Positions 5,598 through 64,000 of a DNA stretch of 64,000 nucleotides are shown piece after piece. The notes beneath the pieces are model-generated. The model searched no databases. It saw only the letters and a list, made by a program, of their open reading frames with translations, and was not told the origin of the DNA. The DNA is taken from assembly GCA_905221615.1 (NCBI GenBank), contig CAJNDT010004591.1, positions 484,001-548,000 of the forward strand, in the 5' to 3' direction. Positions within the stretch are counted from its first letter, which is position 1. Each line of letters opens with the position of its first letter. Position numbers and translations under genes: made by a program. Source of the stretch: Symbiodinium sp. CCMP2592 (Eukaryota; Sar; Dinophyceae; Suessiales; Symbiodiniaceae).

Positions 5598-5854
5598 AAG
5601 GTTTCTAAGGGGCATCGGGAAGTTAGGCGAGAGGGTGGAGCTGTTCGTATTTCCTGCAGGGGCGATCGTATGGTTGGCGTTGACTTAATATAGGATAATG
5701 ACCAACACTTACATTATAATGGGCCCCAACACCCTATTCCAACTATTAAGGTCCCGGTATTATTCTGGATGAGGGTCCACCAGGGTTCTGAAGTTGTGCC
5801 AGACATGTCCACGCCTCCTACGGCATCAGAACGCCTGTCCCCATACACCCCACC

Positions 5855-55308: not shown

Positions 55309-56006
55309 ATTTAAAAAAACTATGTATTACCGCTGTGTGTTTTGAGTTTTGGGGAGTAGTTGTCGTTTGCTTACTGCATAGAGTCCTCATGTTTCTGAGC
55401 CAGCAGAACGCAAAACGACACACGCCAAAGCCTAAACCGGAACCGCGAAGAAGAATCATAAACCTTAAATCTTAAACCCTACCTGACTCTGATAACGGCC
55501 CTTTATAGGTATTGGGCCCGTATTTTGCCTACTTGTGGGGGTGGTTGAACTTCCAATGTCCAAGGCCCACGAGGGCAGTAGCCTCGGTAGGATAATGTCG
55601 AACCATCCATTGGGGTGTGCAGGCCAAGGCAATGTAAGGCTTCTTCAAAACGGTTTTAATTCTGGGTATTCATAACCCCTATATTCATCAACAAGCATTT
55701 CTAATCTAATCATAGCAATGACAAGAAATCAAGTATGACTATCTATCAACGTTATCTGAGTGCCCTTAAGTGAAACAACGAAGGTCGAACATGCTACGAA
55801 CAAGGCTGCCTAGAATCCTAGAGCCTTGTGTCTGATCCAGGACCCCGTCGCGGCGTGCTGACAAGATGGGAACGTGATGTAGGGGTCGGTGCACCCAGTA
55901 GGTACTGGTATTTCCTAGAAGGGGCCCCTTTAATATTAGGGTTTAGGGTATAGGGTTTGGGAGTTTGTGTTATGGGTCCGGAGGTCATGCTTCTTAAGTT
56001 CAGCAG
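55309..56006. other. Stretch without a convincing gene
   Basis: Short CCCTAAA-type fragments at 55430-55490, otherwise unique AT-rich sequence and TTTAGGGT repeat at 55938-55965. Nothing recognised. Confidence 0.5.
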
Positions 56007-56103
56007 GGAGCGGGATGGCAGTAGAAATGCTGAGCGCCAGACGAAGCAAGTATATCGACCCCATGATCCTCGACGGCGCCCCTCCGGACACGCTCGTTTG
56101 GAG
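56007..56103 (+). CDS. Candidate exon, unknown protein
   Basis: TTCAGCAG|GG acceptor, MAVEMLSARRSKYIDPMILD then GAPPDTLVWR, and TGGAG|GTGTTT donor. Third positions are strongly C/G and both splice sites are good, which makes it one of the better non-homology candidates. The frame stays open to 56380. Confidence 0.5.
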
Positions 56104-57345
56104 GTGTTTCGGGTCTAATCACGAGCTTCTTAAGTATACATTAACTCAAGAGCGACACGGAGATGAAGTGAAGCTGATCGATTCATTTTGTACTGCTGGC
56201 ATGCTTCACTGTGGACCAAGGTGTGGGGTTGAAGGTTTAGGATTTGGTGGTTTACGGTGCAAGCTGCACTTCGGATTACAAGCTTCAAGGTTAAGGATAT
56301 CACCTATCCACAGCGACAATCTTGATCCGAGTCAGAGACTGGATGAGACATCGAGGCGGCTTTTGGTGCAATGGCCTTAGACGCCAAGCCCTAAACCGCA
56401 AACCGTATTGCAAGCAGTTTTGTTAGCTCCCCGGGCAATCTGAAGGTACAGGTCAGAAGTAGGTGTAGCTTCAAGGACCTGATGGGTGGCACTGGCACCC
56501 GGTTAGATCAGAGTTGTGCTTGAAGCCAGCTCAGCTGCGCACGTGCACATACACGCATGCACATACACACAGAGGCAGACAGACACAGACGCACAAAGCA
56601 TGCGGCCACGGCCACGGGCTTGGCTTGACAAAAAGGATGCTTTATTCTTCAGCCGCCCTTGGGCCATTTGCATAACAGACCTGAGAACCCCAAACCCGGT
56701 ATATACGTTAACTAATTTCCTCACGCATATTAAATCCAGCACCCTATGCTGCCGAGAAGTGTTTTCCAGCCAGTTTCTGCTTGTCGGAAGATCCAGCGTC
56801 ATGGCAGACCAAAAAGTGGGAGAACACGGTTTAGGGTTTGGGTTGAGGTATGCTGAGGTTAAGTTAAGGTTTCAGAGTTTAGGATTGCATTGCTTTGTAT
56901 GTGGCAATAGATCCTCGACCCGCCTTGTGTTAGGTCGGTTTTGAGTTCGAGGCTTCTTCAGGGGTGAGTGAAGAATGACAGTCTTGCAGTGTCTACTGTA
57001 CATCCATATACCTTGTTGCAGGAGATAACCCGTCGTCCCGTTGAAGCTATGAAGTCTCGATGTTGAATGTGGGGGAAGGAGACTGAGTTGAAGCCATCTG
57101 GCGAAGGCGTCGGAGCGGTTTAGGATTTGGTTTTTTTATGGGCCAACGTATGATAGCAGCGTGATATACACCCAATTGTGGACTAGCTGTGGCAGGCTGT
57201 TAATTTCAAGGTTCAGCACATGGCGCAAAATTGCATGGCTTACGCCAGGCCAGTGACATGGCTTACGCGATAGAGTCAACCCCAAAGCCTAAACTGTGCC
57301 CTAAAACCCTCTCTCAACTTTGCCCTAAACCCTAAATCCACCTGG

Positions 57346-57443
57346 GTGGTTGTCAATATTAGGGTCCCTTTTTGGGTCTTGACTATAATACGGCACCTAA
57401 TATTTAGGCTACCCGAAAAGGGACCCTGATTTTGGCAACTACC
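57346..57443. mobile_element. MITE family J, copy J2
   Basis: GGGTGGTTGTCAATATTAGG at left and CTGATTTTGGCAACTACCCA at right. Confidence 0.85.
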
Positions 57444-57783
57444 CACCTGCCATTCTTGAGCCTGGAATTCGTCAGTTGTTCCTGTGACCATCGTCTGGCG
57501 AGTTAGGACAAGTTGGCGTTTAGGGTTTGGGCATTGGGGGGTTTAGGGGTTCAGGGTTTAGGGTCGGGGAGTTGGTGCATTTGGGGGATTTAGGGGTTAA
57601 CAGATTTGTGGGAAATTGGGTTTCTATACGAGAAGCTCAGAAAACCAGCAGCTTCCACCACACAAGTGTTGTCTCTTACCTAAGTCGGGTACAACTCCGC
57701 CATGTGCAAATTGAACCCAAGCTTCCCGTAAGCCGAAGAAGTGGCCCCTGGGCTTTAGAGTTTCAGGTTTAAGGTTTAGAGCT

Positions 57784-58281: not shown

Positions 58282-59135
58282 TGAACGTTTCGAGTCCTCG
58301 TGGCGGTAGAGTGGCGGTCTGCTCGTGGGGCTTCTGGTGGTGGTGATGATGGTGGTCGGCGTCGTCCTTAGAACTCGTGCTAGCATTAGGACTGGTGGCA
58401 GTAGTGGAGTTGGTGGTGGTGCCCGTTGTTTTTGTGGTGCTGGTGGCGATAGCTTAGTCGTAGCAGGTGTAGCAGCACCAGGGGGAGCGGCAGGACGATG
58501 CCTGATGTTGGGCGATGGTGACGTGGAGGATGGTCATCATGATGATGGTGATAGTGATGGCGCGACCATGTTGAGGATGGTGCTGATGACGACAGCGATG
58601 CGTTCATGTTGGTGAGCCGCCGAGGACGAGCACATACGAGCACGATCAGTGTTGCCTCCAATTGTCGTGACTCCATCGTTTTTCACGTTTCTTCACTTAC
58701 AAGACTTCAGGCCTGCGGGTTCATGAGTTCGAGCTCCAGATTTAGATTTCACCCCGGGGCTCCAGGTATTGGACCTAGTGTAGGGGCCGGAATGGTTGGA
58801 GCAGGGTTTTTGGGGGCATATCTCATTCGGCCTACATAAGGACTCTAAAGACTACTTTCTTCAGACCTCTTCCAGGACCCCCAAGTGCCCTTTAACACAG
58901 CCCTTATGGTCCTTAATAGTGGGCATGGTGGGTCTATGAGAGGGTAGTTTGGGGGTCCTGGTTGCCGCACCGGTGCATAGGACGCTTCGGGATGGGATAA
59001 TATTTGATAATATATTTGAACAAATACTATTATTTAAGCAAATCGAACAAACGATATTCAGATTGTAGATCGAAACATACTTTGATTTAATGCGATATTG
59101 GTTCTTGTAATATACATATACATGTGTGTCTGTAT

Positions 59136-59168
<33 letters not shown>

Positions 59169-59629
59169 CATATATATATATATGGTCACCCCCCCCCCAA
59201 GATCTACGCTTGCACTGTGCATACCATCTTGTGTTTAACTACAGACACGTGTGCACGAGTCCTTAGTACAGAAAACACCGTAAATATCGGTATAATCGCT
59301 GCTATCGTAGAATACACACAACTGTGCTGCTACGCATCTTGCTCCGATACATCGATTAATATGCGGCCGATTTTCGGCCACCAGAAATACTACTTTATGT
59401 ATTCGGAAAGCCGAAACTGCTGGAAGGTAGTACCCGATTTTTGTTGTGGTATTAAAAAACCCCATGTTTTTTGCATTTTTGAGGCGTCAACAAACAATAA
59501 TCGCACATCACGGGCACTGTGCAATTCTTTCGGCGCTTGAGGGCTGCACTCACGCATGTTCACACGTCAGATTGCTACACTGCTACATCTGCCAAAACTG
59601 AGCCAAAACTAGGTTCGAAGCATTCTCTG
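58282..59629. other. Transition region, no convincing gene
   Basis: GGTGGTGATGATGG low-complexity DNA at 58330-58610, an AT-rich stretch at 58990-59110, a TA microsatellite at 59133-59185, then unique sequence. The heptamer repeats and MITEs that fill the window to the left stop at about 58.9 kb. Confidence 0.55.
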
Positions 59630-60909
59630 TCACGACTCCGTAAACAAGGTGTCCAGCATTTTGCCGGTAGCCTTCCACATATTGCACCGGCTAAACCAGT
59701 ACTCAAACTGAGCTGAGCGGATCTTTCGGGTGAGAATGGGGCTACCGGGGGTGCGGGCGGTGTGCTTAATGTGGGACCGCAACAAGCCCCAAAAACGGTC
59801 GATAATTTGAGTGCCACTCTTGACTTTCATCTGGTCTCCGGTGGGCATCTTGAGGGAGTAAACCTTCGTGTAGTGCGGCTTCACCCATCGAACCTGTAGC
59901 GATTTTCGCGGTTATCTGGTTGTTACATTTGTTACAACAAAATAAAAACCCAAATGACAGCATAACGACCGGCCTTCCCATCCACTTTGACTTTTTTCTT
60001 CTTGTGAATCACGTTGCAATGCATCACACCGGGAACCTTGAGCTTGTAGGCACGGGCGCCATCGCTATGGAGGACAACCTTCCTGTTGGCAAGATGTTTG
60101 GTGGCGATGGGTTTCCACTCCCTCTTCCTCATAGCTCCTGGGCCTGGTGCTCGTTTGACGGTTTTTGCGGGATGCAAACGAATCAACTTCAACGAAGAGG
60201 GTCGCCCGCGTTCAACCAAACCTCCCCACTGTTCCCAAACCGTATTCTTTGTGCTTGTTGTAGTGTTGTCCGTGAGCTTTCCCACATCCACTTCGTCAAC
60301 CTCTACGTCCTCCCACTTGCCTCCGTAACGGATTTCCTTCTCCTTCAACTGAACATAACGAGCTCGAGATGTGTCGACATTTGTGTAGATCCGCTCTACG
60401 GCTTTATGGTCAAGGTCGAGGATGAGATGCGCAGATTGTGAGGAAACGCCTGCAACCGCACAATAAAGTGCCGCAGCTTGATGACCAAGATCTGTGATGG
60501 AATTCCCGCTGCCCTTGAAAAAGATCGGGTGGAAGTCATGGGCCAAGAGTAGCTTGTTGCATCCACGATGGCCGCATCTGTACCCCCATACTTTCTTGGA
60601 TTTGACATACGACAACGAACCCAAAGTACCATGACCACACCGAGGACAGTCATGACCAGACCAATTGGGAAGGATCTTGTCCGTGACGAGCTTTCGGATT
60701 AGACTGCGACCGGTCATGGACAACAGTGTGTGCACTGAAAGACCCCATCGATCACGATGCCCTTTGTTCTTGGTTGTCTGGATTCCATGCCGAACATACG
60801 GTACCTGCACATACTTCTGCTTCATGGCTCGCTTCTGTACACGCTGCTTGCCACGTTTCGGACAAGGGAATGGTGGCGATTTCATCGCCTTCTTTACACT
60901 TTTTGGCAT
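59630..60909 (-). CDS. ISXO2/IS1595 (Merlin-like) transposase, two exons
   Basis: DDE-type transposase of about 407 residues; this family cuts and pastes DNA using three acidic residues. Exon 1 is 60909-59950 and exon 2 is 59893-59630, with a 56-nt GT-AG intron (59949-59894, AG followed by G). The join is in phase 0 and restores the family C-terminus that exon 1 alone lacks. Order: basic N-terminus (MPKSVKKAMKS), zinc ribbon with Cys at about 88, 91, 112 and 117 (CPRCGHG ... YRCGHRGC), first catalytic Asp in EVDEVDVGK (about 205), second Asp in VVLHSDGARAYK (about 283), third acidic position in TQIIDRFWGLLRSHI (about 352), which is Asp where the family usually has Glu or Asn. The frame is open upstream to 61023, but a GTGAGT...AAG|ATG boundary suggests the ATG at 60909 starts the protein. 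Confidence 0.85.
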
Positions 60910-61279
60910 CTTGCGAAAAGTGTTAATCGCAAAAAGGAAAATACTCACTGACTTAATGTTGAAGCCGTGCAAACAAATCAAGTCTCGAATGAGTGGGCTC
61001 CGACATGACACATCATGACACATGAGGCATCGCAGTATGTTTGCAGCAATCTCAATTTTTCACGTTCGTGCTTCGGCATCTTGTCACGTGTGCTACACAA
61101 ATCCTCAAAACTAGCCGGCTGTATGGCTGCGCGCCATTTCTCGGAGCATCAATCTTTGGGTATAACATCTATACGACCTAACCTAACACACAGCAAGCAA
61201 ACCAACTTTAATAAACTCATTTGATTCAAACACCAATATTGGCTCCCGGCTTTCCCCATTCCCACACTGTACACGAAAT

Positions 61280-62774
61280 TTAGCTCTCGTCATCCAAAGA
61301 CCCGCCATGTCCGAGCACACCCGCATCCTCATCATCATCGTCATCCTTGGCAACCCCAAAGAGAGATTCTTCCTCCCCCGATGCCACGTCCATTTCATCG
61401 ACGTCGTCGTCGTCGTCATCCACTCCGGGAAACAATGGGTTGGGAATATCCGCTTGGGTTTCTGTAACATGCGAGGCTTGACTGCTGCGATGCACGGATG
61501 TTGAGGGAGAGAGCTCAATGACACCACTGGGGCCCAAGGCACGGCTGAAGGCAGAACTCGCAAGAAGAAAGCGCGCGTATGACTGATCGAATTGCTCTTG
61601 CTGCTCTTGCTTGACTTTGCTGGGTGGGGTCTTTGGGGCAGGAGGCTCTGGACTGTCTGCACTTAGCGCCTCCCCGTTGCACATGTTTGCGAGTCCTTCG
61701 TTTGCGTCTGCAAATTCATCGGGCTCCATCTTGATTCTGACCCCTGGTGGTGGGGCGTTGGGGCCGGGCATGTTGTTGTGCTGCTCTACGGTGTTCACGG
61801 CTTGATGACGGCGAATAGCTTCATGTAGCCAAGCTTGCTCTGTGTCGACCCTGTTCTGGTAGTCGGGGGGCACCGGACCATCAAGCTTGTAATTGGAGAA
61901 CCGGGGCTTGCTCTCATCCGAAAGAATGTCCTTCAAATGCCATCGGAATCGAGTGACACTTGTAACCCGTTCGGAGGGGAGTCGAATGAATATGGAGTCG
62001 CGGCCGAAGACTATGAACACACTGCGTTTGAGGATAGCACGAGTGTCTGCATCGGAGATATGGCCGATCGCTGGACGGACGATGCTGATGAAATCATGGT
62101 GGTCAATTTCCTGCTGCGGCATGCTGGGGATGTCCTTGTCGTTGTACGAGTTGTCGATGATGATGCGGAGTTGGTGCTTCGTGAACTTTGCGGCCGTCCA
62201 GCGTTCTTTGAGAATGCCTTCCGTATCGCCTACATCACAAAACGCCTTCTTTTTCTTGATTGATTCGTCCGAAATGTCCCCATCGTCGTACAATGCCGGA
62301 ATAGTTTTGTTGAAAGGCAACCCTCGGAAGAAATCGAAATCCGATGAGCTTCTGAATGAGCCTTTGCCGCCGTGGTATCTGCTGAATGCCATGGCGAGCG
62401 TGCGTGCCAGTGGCGTTTTGCCCTTCCCCGGTTCGCCCAAAAGCCACAAACTGTGATCCAGTAGGTATGGGACTACCGTTTCCATGACACCCTGCACGAA
62501 CACTGGCTCGAAATCCTGCATGGTGAGGTCGTACCTGGTGGTCAGTGAAGCCAAACACCCGTCGTTAGCAAGGCTGTCAAGGGCTCGCTGAACAAGCTTT
62601 TCGGGCCATCCCTTGATCGGCGAGCCTTCCCGATTGATGTGCCTGTGAATCCAACGAAGTTGCCTCAACTCACCCTTGTCCCGCTCCCCTTCGTTGATGA
62701 TGAAATCCCATCCTGCATCCTGCTCCTCGTCATTCGATATGCTCAAGACCGATGATGAAGCGGGTCGTTTCTTC
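61280..62774 (-). CDS. P-loop ATPase, superfamily-3-helicase-like, with acidic tail
   Basis: About 490-residue ATPase lying 370 bp upstream of the transposase on the same strand. Counting from the TTG at 62746: Walker A GEPGKGKT at 104-111, a Walker-B-like IPALYDDGD at about 149-157, and FTKHQLRIIIDNSYND near 188-203, which resembles motif C of SF3 helicases (hydrophobics, then SN/NS). A spacer is followed by Pro-rich and Asp-rich low-complexity stretches (DDDDDDVDEMD) at 320-475. No in-frame ATG lies between an upstream stop (62776-62778) and residue 76; an AAAG|G acceptor at 62775/62774 would allow an upstream exon. TTG is unlikely to be the real start. In Mu, Tn7 and IS21, ATPases help target choice; here that role is inference. 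Confidence 0.75.
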
Positions 62775-62883
62775 CTTTATGCTTGTTATGTTTATGTGTA
62801 GATATACCACTGAGTCACTCTTTTTCTGAATGAACAAACCACACAACATCAGGTTTGTTTACATATACAAAAAAAACAAACCA

Positions 62884-63571
62884 TTAGCTAAGGCTCTCAC
62901 TTGAGAGTGAAAAGTATGTATATTGAGTACCGCCCATTTGCTCCAACATCCATTGCAGAGCTTTGCGTTCCACGACTTTGTTCCCACTGCCCCAAGCGAT
63001 CTCATAGCCTGTACCCCGGGTTAGTGTCTGAACAACGGCCCCGGAGGTTTTGGTTTGGCCAAGGACGTAGTGCGTCAGGACGGTAATCTTGCCGTTGAGT
63101 TGCGGAATGAGGAAATACTGTGATTTATACTCGAAGGGGGGGATTTTTTTCAACCGCATTGGTTCCGGCAGCTCGTGAAAATTCTTCGACTTGAGGATCG
63201 CCTTGACTTGTTCTCGGTCAATATCTTCGGGGGTCGCATCATGCACGATGTCGATGAAGTGTTTGAGACTTTTAGCTGTATCGGATAGCCTTGGCAGGTA
63301 CTTCGACAATCATATCTACATACCATACCGCGTATATGCACATATACAAACGTTACTGTAGCTCGCCATCCCCCAGTAAAAGAACAACAACAAAAACAAC
63401 ACCAAACACATACATTCATTCGAGCAGCTCTCGCATCGGAAGATTTGTGATGTTAATCACCCCTACTGGCATTGGACCCACACACACGTGTTCATGCATC
63501 TCACGTAGGACCATATCCGTAGTTGCCTCCTTTGCTTGATTGAACCGCACCTCGTCCGGGTGGATTTCCAT
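62884..63571 (-). CDS. Two-exon protein of unknown function next to the ATPase
   Basis: Exon 1 starts at an ATG at 63571 (MEIHPDEVRFNQAKEATTDM, then VGVINITNLPMREL). Exon 2 covers about 63289-62884 and reads DTAKSLKHFIDIVHDATPED, HELPEPMRLKKIPPFEYKSQ and GGTQYTYFSLSSESLS. A GC donor at 63425 and AAG|G acceptor at 63290 join them in phase (136-nt intron); a GA donor a few bases later also works. The joined protein is about 182 residues, without signal peptide or membrane span. I do not recognise it. Same strand and tight spacing with the ATPase suggest it belongs to the same element. Confidence 0.6.
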
Positions 63572-63720
63572 GGCGTCGTGTGCTGCAAGATTTCAATAGG
63601 CTTGGAGTCACACTTGATTGTGCACAGCTGCGCACCCATCACATATCACATGTCCCTATTCAATAGACCCTCTCATAAACACTCACTGGCTCATTACTTC
63701 AGCTGTGGGAGAACGAGACG

Positions 63721-63749
63721 GACCACACGGTTTTGGTTTTAGGACCAGC
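63721..63749 (+). repeat. 29-bp direct repeat near element edge, copy 1
   Basis: GACCACACGGTTTTGGTTTT then AGGACCAGC; the second copy is at 63912-63940. Confidence 0.85.
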
Positions 63750-63911
63750 ATCAGCAAGTTTGGGGGCGGACAACACACGCGCATCATGAGCATCAGCGGT
63801 GCTGCTTGGCAGTGCAATAACTGAAGCCGCTACCCCATGACCTCGTTGTTGAGTGGTGCATTAAGCAAATTCACTTCTTTTTGACCATGATCAATCTCAA
63901 AGACCATTTCT

Positions 63912-63940
63912 GACCAGGCGGTTTTGGTTTTAGGACCAGC
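63912..63940 (+). repeat. 29-bp direct repeat near element edge, copy 2
   Basis: GACCAGGCGGTTTTGGTTTT then AGGACCAGC, differing at two positions from copy 1. Confidence 0.85.
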
Positions 63941-64000
63941 CCCGAAGCCGACTGATGCTCATGAGGCCACGGCTGATGCTCATGTTTCTATACGTCTTCG

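Follow-up and report, generated by a model that had tools for sequence, protein, structure and literature searches.

A Likely Two-Gene DNA Transposon in Symbiodinium Combining a Predicted HUH-SF3 Rep-Like Protein with a D-D-D Transposase

Introduction

A 64,000-nucleotide stretch of the genome of Symbiodinium sp. CCMP2592, a coral-symbiont alga (contig CAJNDT010004591.1, positions 484,001 to 548,000; hereafter termed the window), carries a gene for a P-loop ATPase and, downstream on the same strand, a transposase gene whose product has a zinc ribbon of the form CPxC...C. The locus raises the question of whether these genes move together and, if so, what such an ATPase contributes to a eukaryotic transposon. 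A preliminary description of the window had proposed a mobile unit at 59630..63940 consisting of a transposase, a helper ATPase and an extra protein. The analysis described here indicates that the locus is likely a two-gene dinoflagellate DNA transposon, in which a Rep-like protein with a predicted HUH fold and SF3 domain is combined with a transposase with a predicted RNase-H fold and a D-D-D triad.

Limits and Copies of the Element

The transposon spans 5.46 kb, from 59184 to approximately 64643, and thus exceeds the originally proposed interval on both sides; its right end, 0.64 kb past the window, was read in locus L029 (Table 1). Copies with 97–99.5% identity are present at three other loci, and all four loci of this family possess inverted ends, of which the left starts with GG and the right with GC in the window element. 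The block was initially described as repeat-free, but short tandem repeats oriented both ways form an array between the Rep-like gene and the right end, mostly past the window, and the sequence from 63540 onward is common to at least 34 other loci with a different interior. The family is inserted in (TA)n, where the length of a target duplication is unreadable, and a search for the empty site of the window copy using the right flank yielded interspersed repeats only.

Table 1. Features of the element (window coordinates unless stated otherwise).
Feature	Position	Strand	Remarks
(TA)n-rich microsatellite	59110..59183	.	Contains the element's left end; the right end is flanked by a comparable tract, L029 5645 onward
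Left (transposase-side) terminal inverted repeat, GGTCACCCCCCCCCCAAGATCTACG	59184..59208	.	Also in L010, L011 and L012
Transposase exon 2: third acidic residue (D)	59630..59884	-	Frame; splice site approximate; profile match E 6.8e-34
Transposase exon 1: zinc ribbon, first two catalytic D	59932..60909	-	Likely ATG 60909
Rep-like gene, last exon: SF3-type ATPase core and acidic C-terminal tail	61280..62746	-	GEPGKGKTP, LYDDG, RIIIDN
Rep-like gene, middle exon: predicted HUH-fold N-terminal domain	62884..63309	-	N-domain matches to Rep nuclease domains
Rep-like gene, exon 1	63425..63571	-	ATG 63571; 3′ limit approximate
Rep-side end of the element	63540..64000, on to ~64643	.	Takes in the first ~11 Rep codons
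Right terminal inverted repeat, CGTAGATCTTG(G)nCGAGC	Ends at L029 5644 = window ~64643		Outside the window

The Rep-Like Protein

The reading frames recognized at 59630–63309 on the minus strand were confirmed, but they constitute two genes rather than three coding units. The frame at 62884–63309, previously assigned to a separate unknown protein, shows homology to the first ~130 residues, at the N-terminus, of the full-length relatives P0123, P0143 and P0167, in which this part runs on into the ATPase as one protein; since these relatives join both regions, the frame is part of the ATPase gene, and its reading as a third gene is rejected. P0143 and L016 denote a single locus.

Walker A, Walker B and motif C are all present in the Rep-like protein, for which an SF3 fold is predicted; the ATPase motifs are kept across the family, and the frames are open over most of their length at many loci. 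Fold comparisons were performed on the relative P0147, for which Foldseek ranks 1–8 were all Rep, NS1, T-antigen or D5, in agreement with the initial label “SF3-like”, and BFVD matches extended over the N-terminal domain as well. This domain, folded only within the P0147 model, gave a TM of 0.56 (by target) against the FBNYV Rep nuclease domain and 0.46 against the N-domain of PCV2 Rep. The predicted order is therefore an HUH-fold domain followed by an SF3 ATPase of the hexameric-helicase type, with viral Rep-type proteins, rather than TnsC or IstB, ranking closest to the model, an arrangement resembling that of CRESS-DNA virus Rep, parvovirus NS1, papillomavirus E1 and SV40 T-antigen.

In contrast to these viral proteins, the Rep-like protein does not conserve the nicking residues and is encoded in a DDE/DDD transposon. 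When the nicking motifs were placed by alignment and secondary structure, one His was found to be kept on the motif II strand (38/40 non-gap rows), and the place of the motif III Tyr is occupied by W in 32 and by F in 8 of 45 non-gap rows; the following Lys/His place is E in 42/47 rows. Several KDZ-clade proteins, as well as L022, do have Tyr at the motif III position. Nicking by the window's protein is thus unlikely, because the nicking-site residues are not kept in it. All named relatives of the protein are from dinoflagellates. No sequence match to virus families was obtained, and scans of viral and prokaryotic contigs, which depend on short conserved peptides and may miss distant relatives, gave 12, 16 and 262 pattern matches with none confirmed.

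The Transposase

Exon 1 of the transposase gene has 122 matches in the same genome, and homology to L022 begins 10 nt upstream of its ATG. All four zinc-ribbon Cys are kept in 71–72 of the 72 rows of the transposase alignment. The window transposase itself has no Pfam match up to E 1; among its 72 relatives, Zn_ribbon_IS1595 matches two (best 0.05) and DDE_Tnp_IS1595 weakly matches four (best 5.3e-4). The third catalytic residue is D in all 53 rows where it was located, and in 44 of them it follows the second D by 61–62 residues. A Foldseek comparison of the transposase model with the PDB returned nothing at E <= 0.001, the best match being Mos1 (1.4e-2). The predicted structure is an RNase-H fold with a D-D-D triad, and the protein is likely a distant IS1595/Merlin relative.

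Merlin/IS1595 elements are characterized by a DDE_Tnp_IS1595 domain, an 8–9 bp target duplication, ends starting with GG and a D-D-E triad, to which IS1595 groups other than IS1016 add an N-terminal zinc ribbon. The window element shares with them the zinc ribbon, one GG end and a Symbiodinium host, as far as described in the available part of PMC8101967, where the IS1595 family has one transposase gene. It differs from them in its third catalytic residue, which is D at ~61 residues after the second D (53 of 72 rows located) and hence departs from D-D-E in 53/53 rows, and in having a second gene inside its ends, GC at the other end and an insertion in (TA)n.

Co-occurrence of the Two Genes

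In the Symbiodinium genome, a listed transposase lies within 4 kb of 87 of the 116 ATPase loci listed, IS1595/Merlin-like in 52 cases and KDZ-like in 35. In 86 of these 87 pairs the transposase is located downstream of the ATPase gene and shares its strand. Random scatter would produce approximately 0.2 pairs in total (0.09 IS1595-type and 0.13 KDZ-type); the pairing is therefore not due to chance. An earlier, narrower listing had found 39 of 85 ATPase loci paired within 10 kb, and wider searches led to the present figures. When seven initially unpaired loci were read, L023–L028 each proved to have a KDZ-type partner, and no transposase was found on reading L020. Apparent absence of the transposase is thus explained in part by incomplete listings and a second transposase kind. 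Among the 29 ATPase loci listed that stay unpaired is L015 (C4889), with a listed transposase 5.8 kb away. On the IS1595-type side, 52 of the 96 transposase loci listed have a listed ATPase gene within 4 kb; of the 44 counted without one, at least L048 (C213:1083386) does carry it.

The recurrence in the same order that the preliminary description anticipated was thus observed, and the opposite pattern, with transposases mostly alone and ATPase genes unlinked, was not. Repeated co-occurrence, inverted ends around both genes and near-identical copies at several loci support, at the sequence level, the view that the Rep-like gene and the transposase of the window form one mobile two-gene unit; of the originally proposed unit, the transposase and ATPase remain and the extra protein falls away.

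KDZ-Partnered Elements and Possible Partner Exchange

In the KDZ-partnered family, comprising four loci (L023–L026), both genes are likewise enclosed by one pair of inverted ends. Target duplications of 8 bp flank L023 and L025, 7 of 8 positions agree in L024, and none is present in L026. The inverted ends and the 8-bp duplications outside both genes indicate that the Rep-like gene and the KDZ-type transposase move together.

For the L027 transposase, Pfam gives matches to KDZ (4.9e-5) and CxC5 (5.6e-5), neither of which reaches the curated cut-off; the transposases of L023 and L028 have no Pfam match and are related to L027 at E 2e-6 and 5e-13, respectively. By eye, a small extra frame is seen near L023, L027 and L028. 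Linkage to a Rep-like SF3 gene distinguishes these dinoflagellate transposases from KDZ (Kyakuja-Dileera-Zisupton) elements, for which the accessible part of PMC12730594 describes no such gene.

Parsimony on a phylogenetic tree requires four partner changes, and the same number with nodes under 80 collapsed. In this tree, gene models from other species or sources supply the partner labels of P0131, P0194, P0216, P0241, P0242, P0232, P0124 and P0130, and P0162, P0167 and P0172 are labelled by record matching only; the L-numbered loci, read as DNA, by themselves require only one change (by eye). Neither the pairing of a Rep-like gene with a transposase in dinoflagellates nor partner exchange was found reported in the literature searched.

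Possible Roles of the Rep-Like Protein

Papillomavirus E1 and SV40 T-antigen assemble at origins and melt or replicate DNA. By analogy, the Rep-like protein may bind the repeats beside the Rep-side end, assemble there and melt or replicate the DNA, which would ready the ends for the transposase or couple transposition to copying; we infer these steps jointly, and the balance tips slightly against them as a set. The transposase would then cut and join at the inverted ends. What the helper does, whether opening DNA or copying it, is probably a general function that is not bound to one kind of transposase, since related Rep-like proteins accompany KDZ-type transposases in other elements. A candidate origin hairpin is at most suggestive: a 20-bp stem was reached by 4 of 40 random pieces, no stem above 14 bp was found in L016, L021 and L022, and the hairpin of L018 is located on the transposase side. 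A tentative and somewhat improbable extension is that dinoflagellates host a class of transposons in which interchangeable DDE/DDD transposases share a non-nicking Rep/E1-like SF3 initiator; transposition would depend on this protein to open or replicate the element, starting at a subterminal origin that bears a hairpin. We know of no described eukaryotic counterpart of such a modular replication-coupled transposon system.

Should the helper prove necessary, these elements would be a eukaryotic example of transposition that depends on its own replication-type helicase, as well as a natural experiment with a constant helper and changing transposases. The system also bears on module exchange between small-DNA-virus Rep proteins and transposons and on the forces shaping repeat-rich dinoflagellate genomes.

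The strongest alternative, improbable but a real contender, is that the transposase alone suffices and that the Rep-like gene is a passenger, serving the element or host otherwise or representing a viral-type gene that was captured and has persisted by chance. Such a role would accord with the 44 IS1595-type loci listed without a Rep-like gene within 4 kb, with Merlin-like families of Symbiodinium published without one (in the part of PMC8101967 available) and with the TET/JBP genes that ride as passengers in fungal transposons of several lineages (PMC12730594, in part). It is harder to reconcile with the fixed order and strand next to two unrelated transposase kinds, the conserved ATPase motifs and the mostly open frames.

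Helpers of Tn7, Mu and IS21 are AAA+ proteins, and in these systems, as here, the transposase adjoins an ATPase gene. A protein acting like TnsC, MuB or IstB, which would select the target (TA repeats) and activate the transposase, is nevertheless unlikely: SF3 proteins rank first in Foldseek, the N-terminal domain is included in the BFVD matches, and the window's predicted helper resembles a replication-initiator helicase. Moreover, L023–L026 carry a related Rep-like protein and sit outside (TA)n, so the choice of TA sites does not go with the helper. The resemblance to Tn7, Mu and IS21 noted at the outset is thus at best functional, and a helper of the Tn7/IS21 AAA+ type is not favoured.

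Rolling-circle mobilization, in which the Rep-like protein nicks and mobilizes the element itself, with only a secondary part for the transposase, would fit the HUH fold, the kept His and the Tyr of several KDZ-clade proteins and L022, but is very unlikely given the W, F and E substitutions and the terminal inverted repeats with 8-bp duplications, which are the outcome of a DDE transposase. Helitrons rely on an active HUH nuclease and, to our knowledge, have no DDE transposase, whereas the window element has a DDE/DDD enzyme and an HUH nuclease domain that appears to be inactive; what is shared with Helitrons is a transposon encoding HUH-type and helicase functions (PMC6668415, available part).

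That the genes are chance neighbours, as unrelated repeats or as a lone transposon next to an integrated Rep-like gene of an ssDNA virus, such as occur in many eukaryotes (PMC3198968, in part), can practically be dismissed in view of the pairing counts, the inverted ends round both genes, the target duplications that lie beyond the two genes in L023 and L025 and the lack of relatives in the viral contigs scanned.

Among the closest published arrangements is the multi-copy geminivirus-like transposon of the truffle Tuber melanosporum, with a Rep-like frame and transposase frames within terminal inverted repeats; according to the accessible part of PMC3198968, its Rep frame is interrupted, its two transposase frames are broken and no target duplications were seen. 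Its Rep is recognizably geminivirus-like, unlike the present protein, and the dinoflagellate frames are open at many loci and accompany two transposase kinds.

Annotation is affected as well: in public gene models, the two genes are fused into one protein (P0121 and P0124) or left without a name.

Structure of the window element

In the 1.1 Gb genome of the dinoflagellate Symbiodinium sp. CCMP2592, a Rep-like gene and an IS1595-type transposase gene constitute a mobile unit that targets TA repeats and is present in near-identical copies. In the window element, both genes lie on the minus strand and are transcribed in the order Rep-like gene, then transposase gene; the GenBank model P0121 splices them into one protein, and a single message for both is therefore possible. 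The preliminary description proposed a three-gene transposon comprising a transposase, an SF3-like ATPase and a separate unknown protein. The joint mobility of the transposase and the ATPase is supported by their recurrence in the same order and by the near-identical copies, but the frame of the extra protein belongs to the Rep-like gene as its N-terminal part, being joined to the ATPase in the matched proteins P0123 (in which its counterpart is residues 1–124), P0143 and P0167.

Coding features of the window element (window positions)
Feature	Position	Strand	Basis
Rep-like gene, first exon	start ATG 63571	-	3' limit approximate
Rep-like gene, middle exon	inside 63309-62884	-	frame; splice limits approximate
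Rep-like gene, last exon	inside 62746-61280	-	frame; splice limits approximate
Transposase, exon 1	ATG 60909 to about 59932	-	frame; splice limits approximate
Transposase, exon 2	inside 59884-59630	-	frame; splice limits approximate

The element is 5.46 kb long, extending from 59184 (left end, GGTCACCCCCCCCCCAAGATCTACG) to position 5644 of the DNA-read locus L029, which corresponds to window position ~64643. Copies at three other loci (L010, L011 and L012) are 99.5, 99.2 and 96.9% identical over 5.1–5.6 kb, and their similarity stops within TA repeats. Both ends were established in 9 of the 15 IS1595-type loci read (L010–L022, L029 and L048), and all nine have (TA)n on both sides; one side only was seen in L017 and L048, and the ends of L013, L014, L015 and L020 were not found. 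Because the flanks are themselves TA repeats, the target duplications of these copies are unreadable, and a search with the right flank found no empty site of the window copy.

Recurrence with two kinds of transposase

Genome searches with the ATPase exon, the N-terminal exon of the Rep-like gene and the transposase yielded at least 94, 93 and 122 matches, respectively; these lower bounds, with every row used, merged into at least 116 Rep loci and at least 96 IS1595-type transposase loci. An IS1595-type transposase lies within 4 kb of Rep at 52 or more of the 116 listed Rep loci, and a Rep within 4 kb at 52 or more of the 96 listed transposase loci, whereas uniform placement predicts about 0.09 pairs by chance. 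The transposase is downstream on the same strand in 51 of the 52 listed pairs, the exception being on contig C5015. The window spans C4590:484001-548000, and a second, divergent pair of a Rep-like gene and an IS1595-type transposase is located on that contig about 19 kb to its right (C4590:567209-570956, plus strand), with a very similar, equally spaced pair on at least seven other contigs.

Rep loci without an IS1595-type transposase often carry another kind instead. The frame at locus L027 matched the Pfam families KDZ (4.9e-5) and CxC5 (5.6e-5), both under their cut-offs; the frames at L028 and L023 had no Pfam match and are related to that of L027 by sequence comparison. Two genome searches (at least 108 and 106 matches) placed a KDZ-type neighbour within 4 kb of at least 35 listed Rep loci, downstream on the same strand in all 35. 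Among the matches listed, none of the 116 Rep loci has both kinds of transposase and 29 have neither. Joint movement of a Rep-like gene and a transposase as a single unit is most clearly proved by L023–L026, four 99% identical copies of a KDZ-partnered element of about 5.2 kb, which share the exact inverted ends CAGAAAGGACTGTTGTGGCGTG and GAGAGGGGACTGTTGTGGCGTG; 8-bp target duplications flank L023 (AATCCCAG) and L025 (AACCCTAA), 7 of 8 bases match in L024, and none was found at the element ends of L026.

A small frame, of similar character by eye, occurs in or near three KDZ-partnered elements (L028:7542-8231, plus strand; L023:1770-2312, minus; L027:5682-6428, minus) and may represent a genuine third gene in these elements. 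In the gene models P0131, P0241, P0242 and P0260, the Rep-like part is separated from the KDZ part by a stretch that resembles a cysteine-protease domain by eye, for which Pfam gave no match. Some KDZ-type matches lie within open frames of about 1,570–1,680 residues (e.g., on contigs C548, C5026 and C2224) with no Rep-like gene nearby among the matches listed, and may represent other KDZ elements.

Possible exchange of partners

The transposase half of L022 is 86% identical to that of the window element over 1.83 kb, the similarity beginning 10 nt before the ATG of the transposase, and the Rep-like proteins are only 37% identical. In gene models from other species, P0131 and P0194 join a window-like Rep to the beginning of a KDZ protein, and in the Effrenium model P0232 a Rep of the KDZ clade is joined to an IS1595-type end. 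Four partner changes are required on a phylogeny of 43 Rep-like rows built with IQ-TREE; by eye, one suffices for the DNA-read loci, and repeated exchange therefore rests on the gene models. In P0273, a Prorocentrum cordatum model, the IS1595-type part precedes the Rep-like part, the reverse of the order in the window genome.

Distribution and related elements

Those Rep matches that bear a name, a minority of at least 80, belong without exception to dinoflagellates (Symbiodinium, Effrenium, Polarella and Durusdinium); a second search (at least 76 matches, again with a minority named, all dinoflagellate) added Cladocopium and Prorocentrum. Rep and transposase profile searches of viral contigs confirmed no relative, nor did a Rep profile search of prokaryote genomes. 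Merlin-like families have been described from Symbiodinium, and the accessible text of that report mentions no Rep-like gene with them (PMC8101967). A truffle transposon, as presented in the accessible part of its source, carries, inside 37-bp inverted repeats, a Rep frame that is interrupted and two transposase frames that are broken (PMC3198968); nothing closer was found in a literature search beyond whose reach most subscription papers lay.

Possible mechanism and the Rep-side end

The folds of the two proteins are predicted. The Rep-like protein would open or copy DNA close to its own element end, and the transposase would cut and join at the inverted ends. The main rival remains that the Rep-like gene is a passenger carried along in the transposon. 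Between the Rep-like gene and its element end lies an inverted repeat with stems of 20–111 bp in the window family; in L019, L023 and L028 the stems measure 24, 34 and 28 bp, respectively. The 21-bp stem of L018 is on the side opposite the Rep-like gene, and no stem in L016, L021 or L022 exceeds 14 bp. Stems of at least 20 bp also occur in 4 of 40 random pieces of the window, and this candidate origin-like site is therefore treated as only a lead.

The part of the element's right, Rep-side end that falls in the window (63540-64000), which takes in the opening ~11 codons of the Rep-like gene, is common to at least 34 other listed loci with different interiors. Nineteen of these (L031–L047, L049 and L050) were read over 2.4–2.8 kb each, their far ends lying outside, and profiles detected no Rep or transposase frame in any of them within that length. 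Eighteen align mutually over at least 1.1 kb, L049 aligning only weakly. With the Rep-side end kept and another interior, they look like non-autonomous elements, and may be moved in trans. Elsewhere in the window, 55938-57779 contains scattered degenerate TTTAGGG-like (telomere-type) motifs (repeat families D2 and D3).
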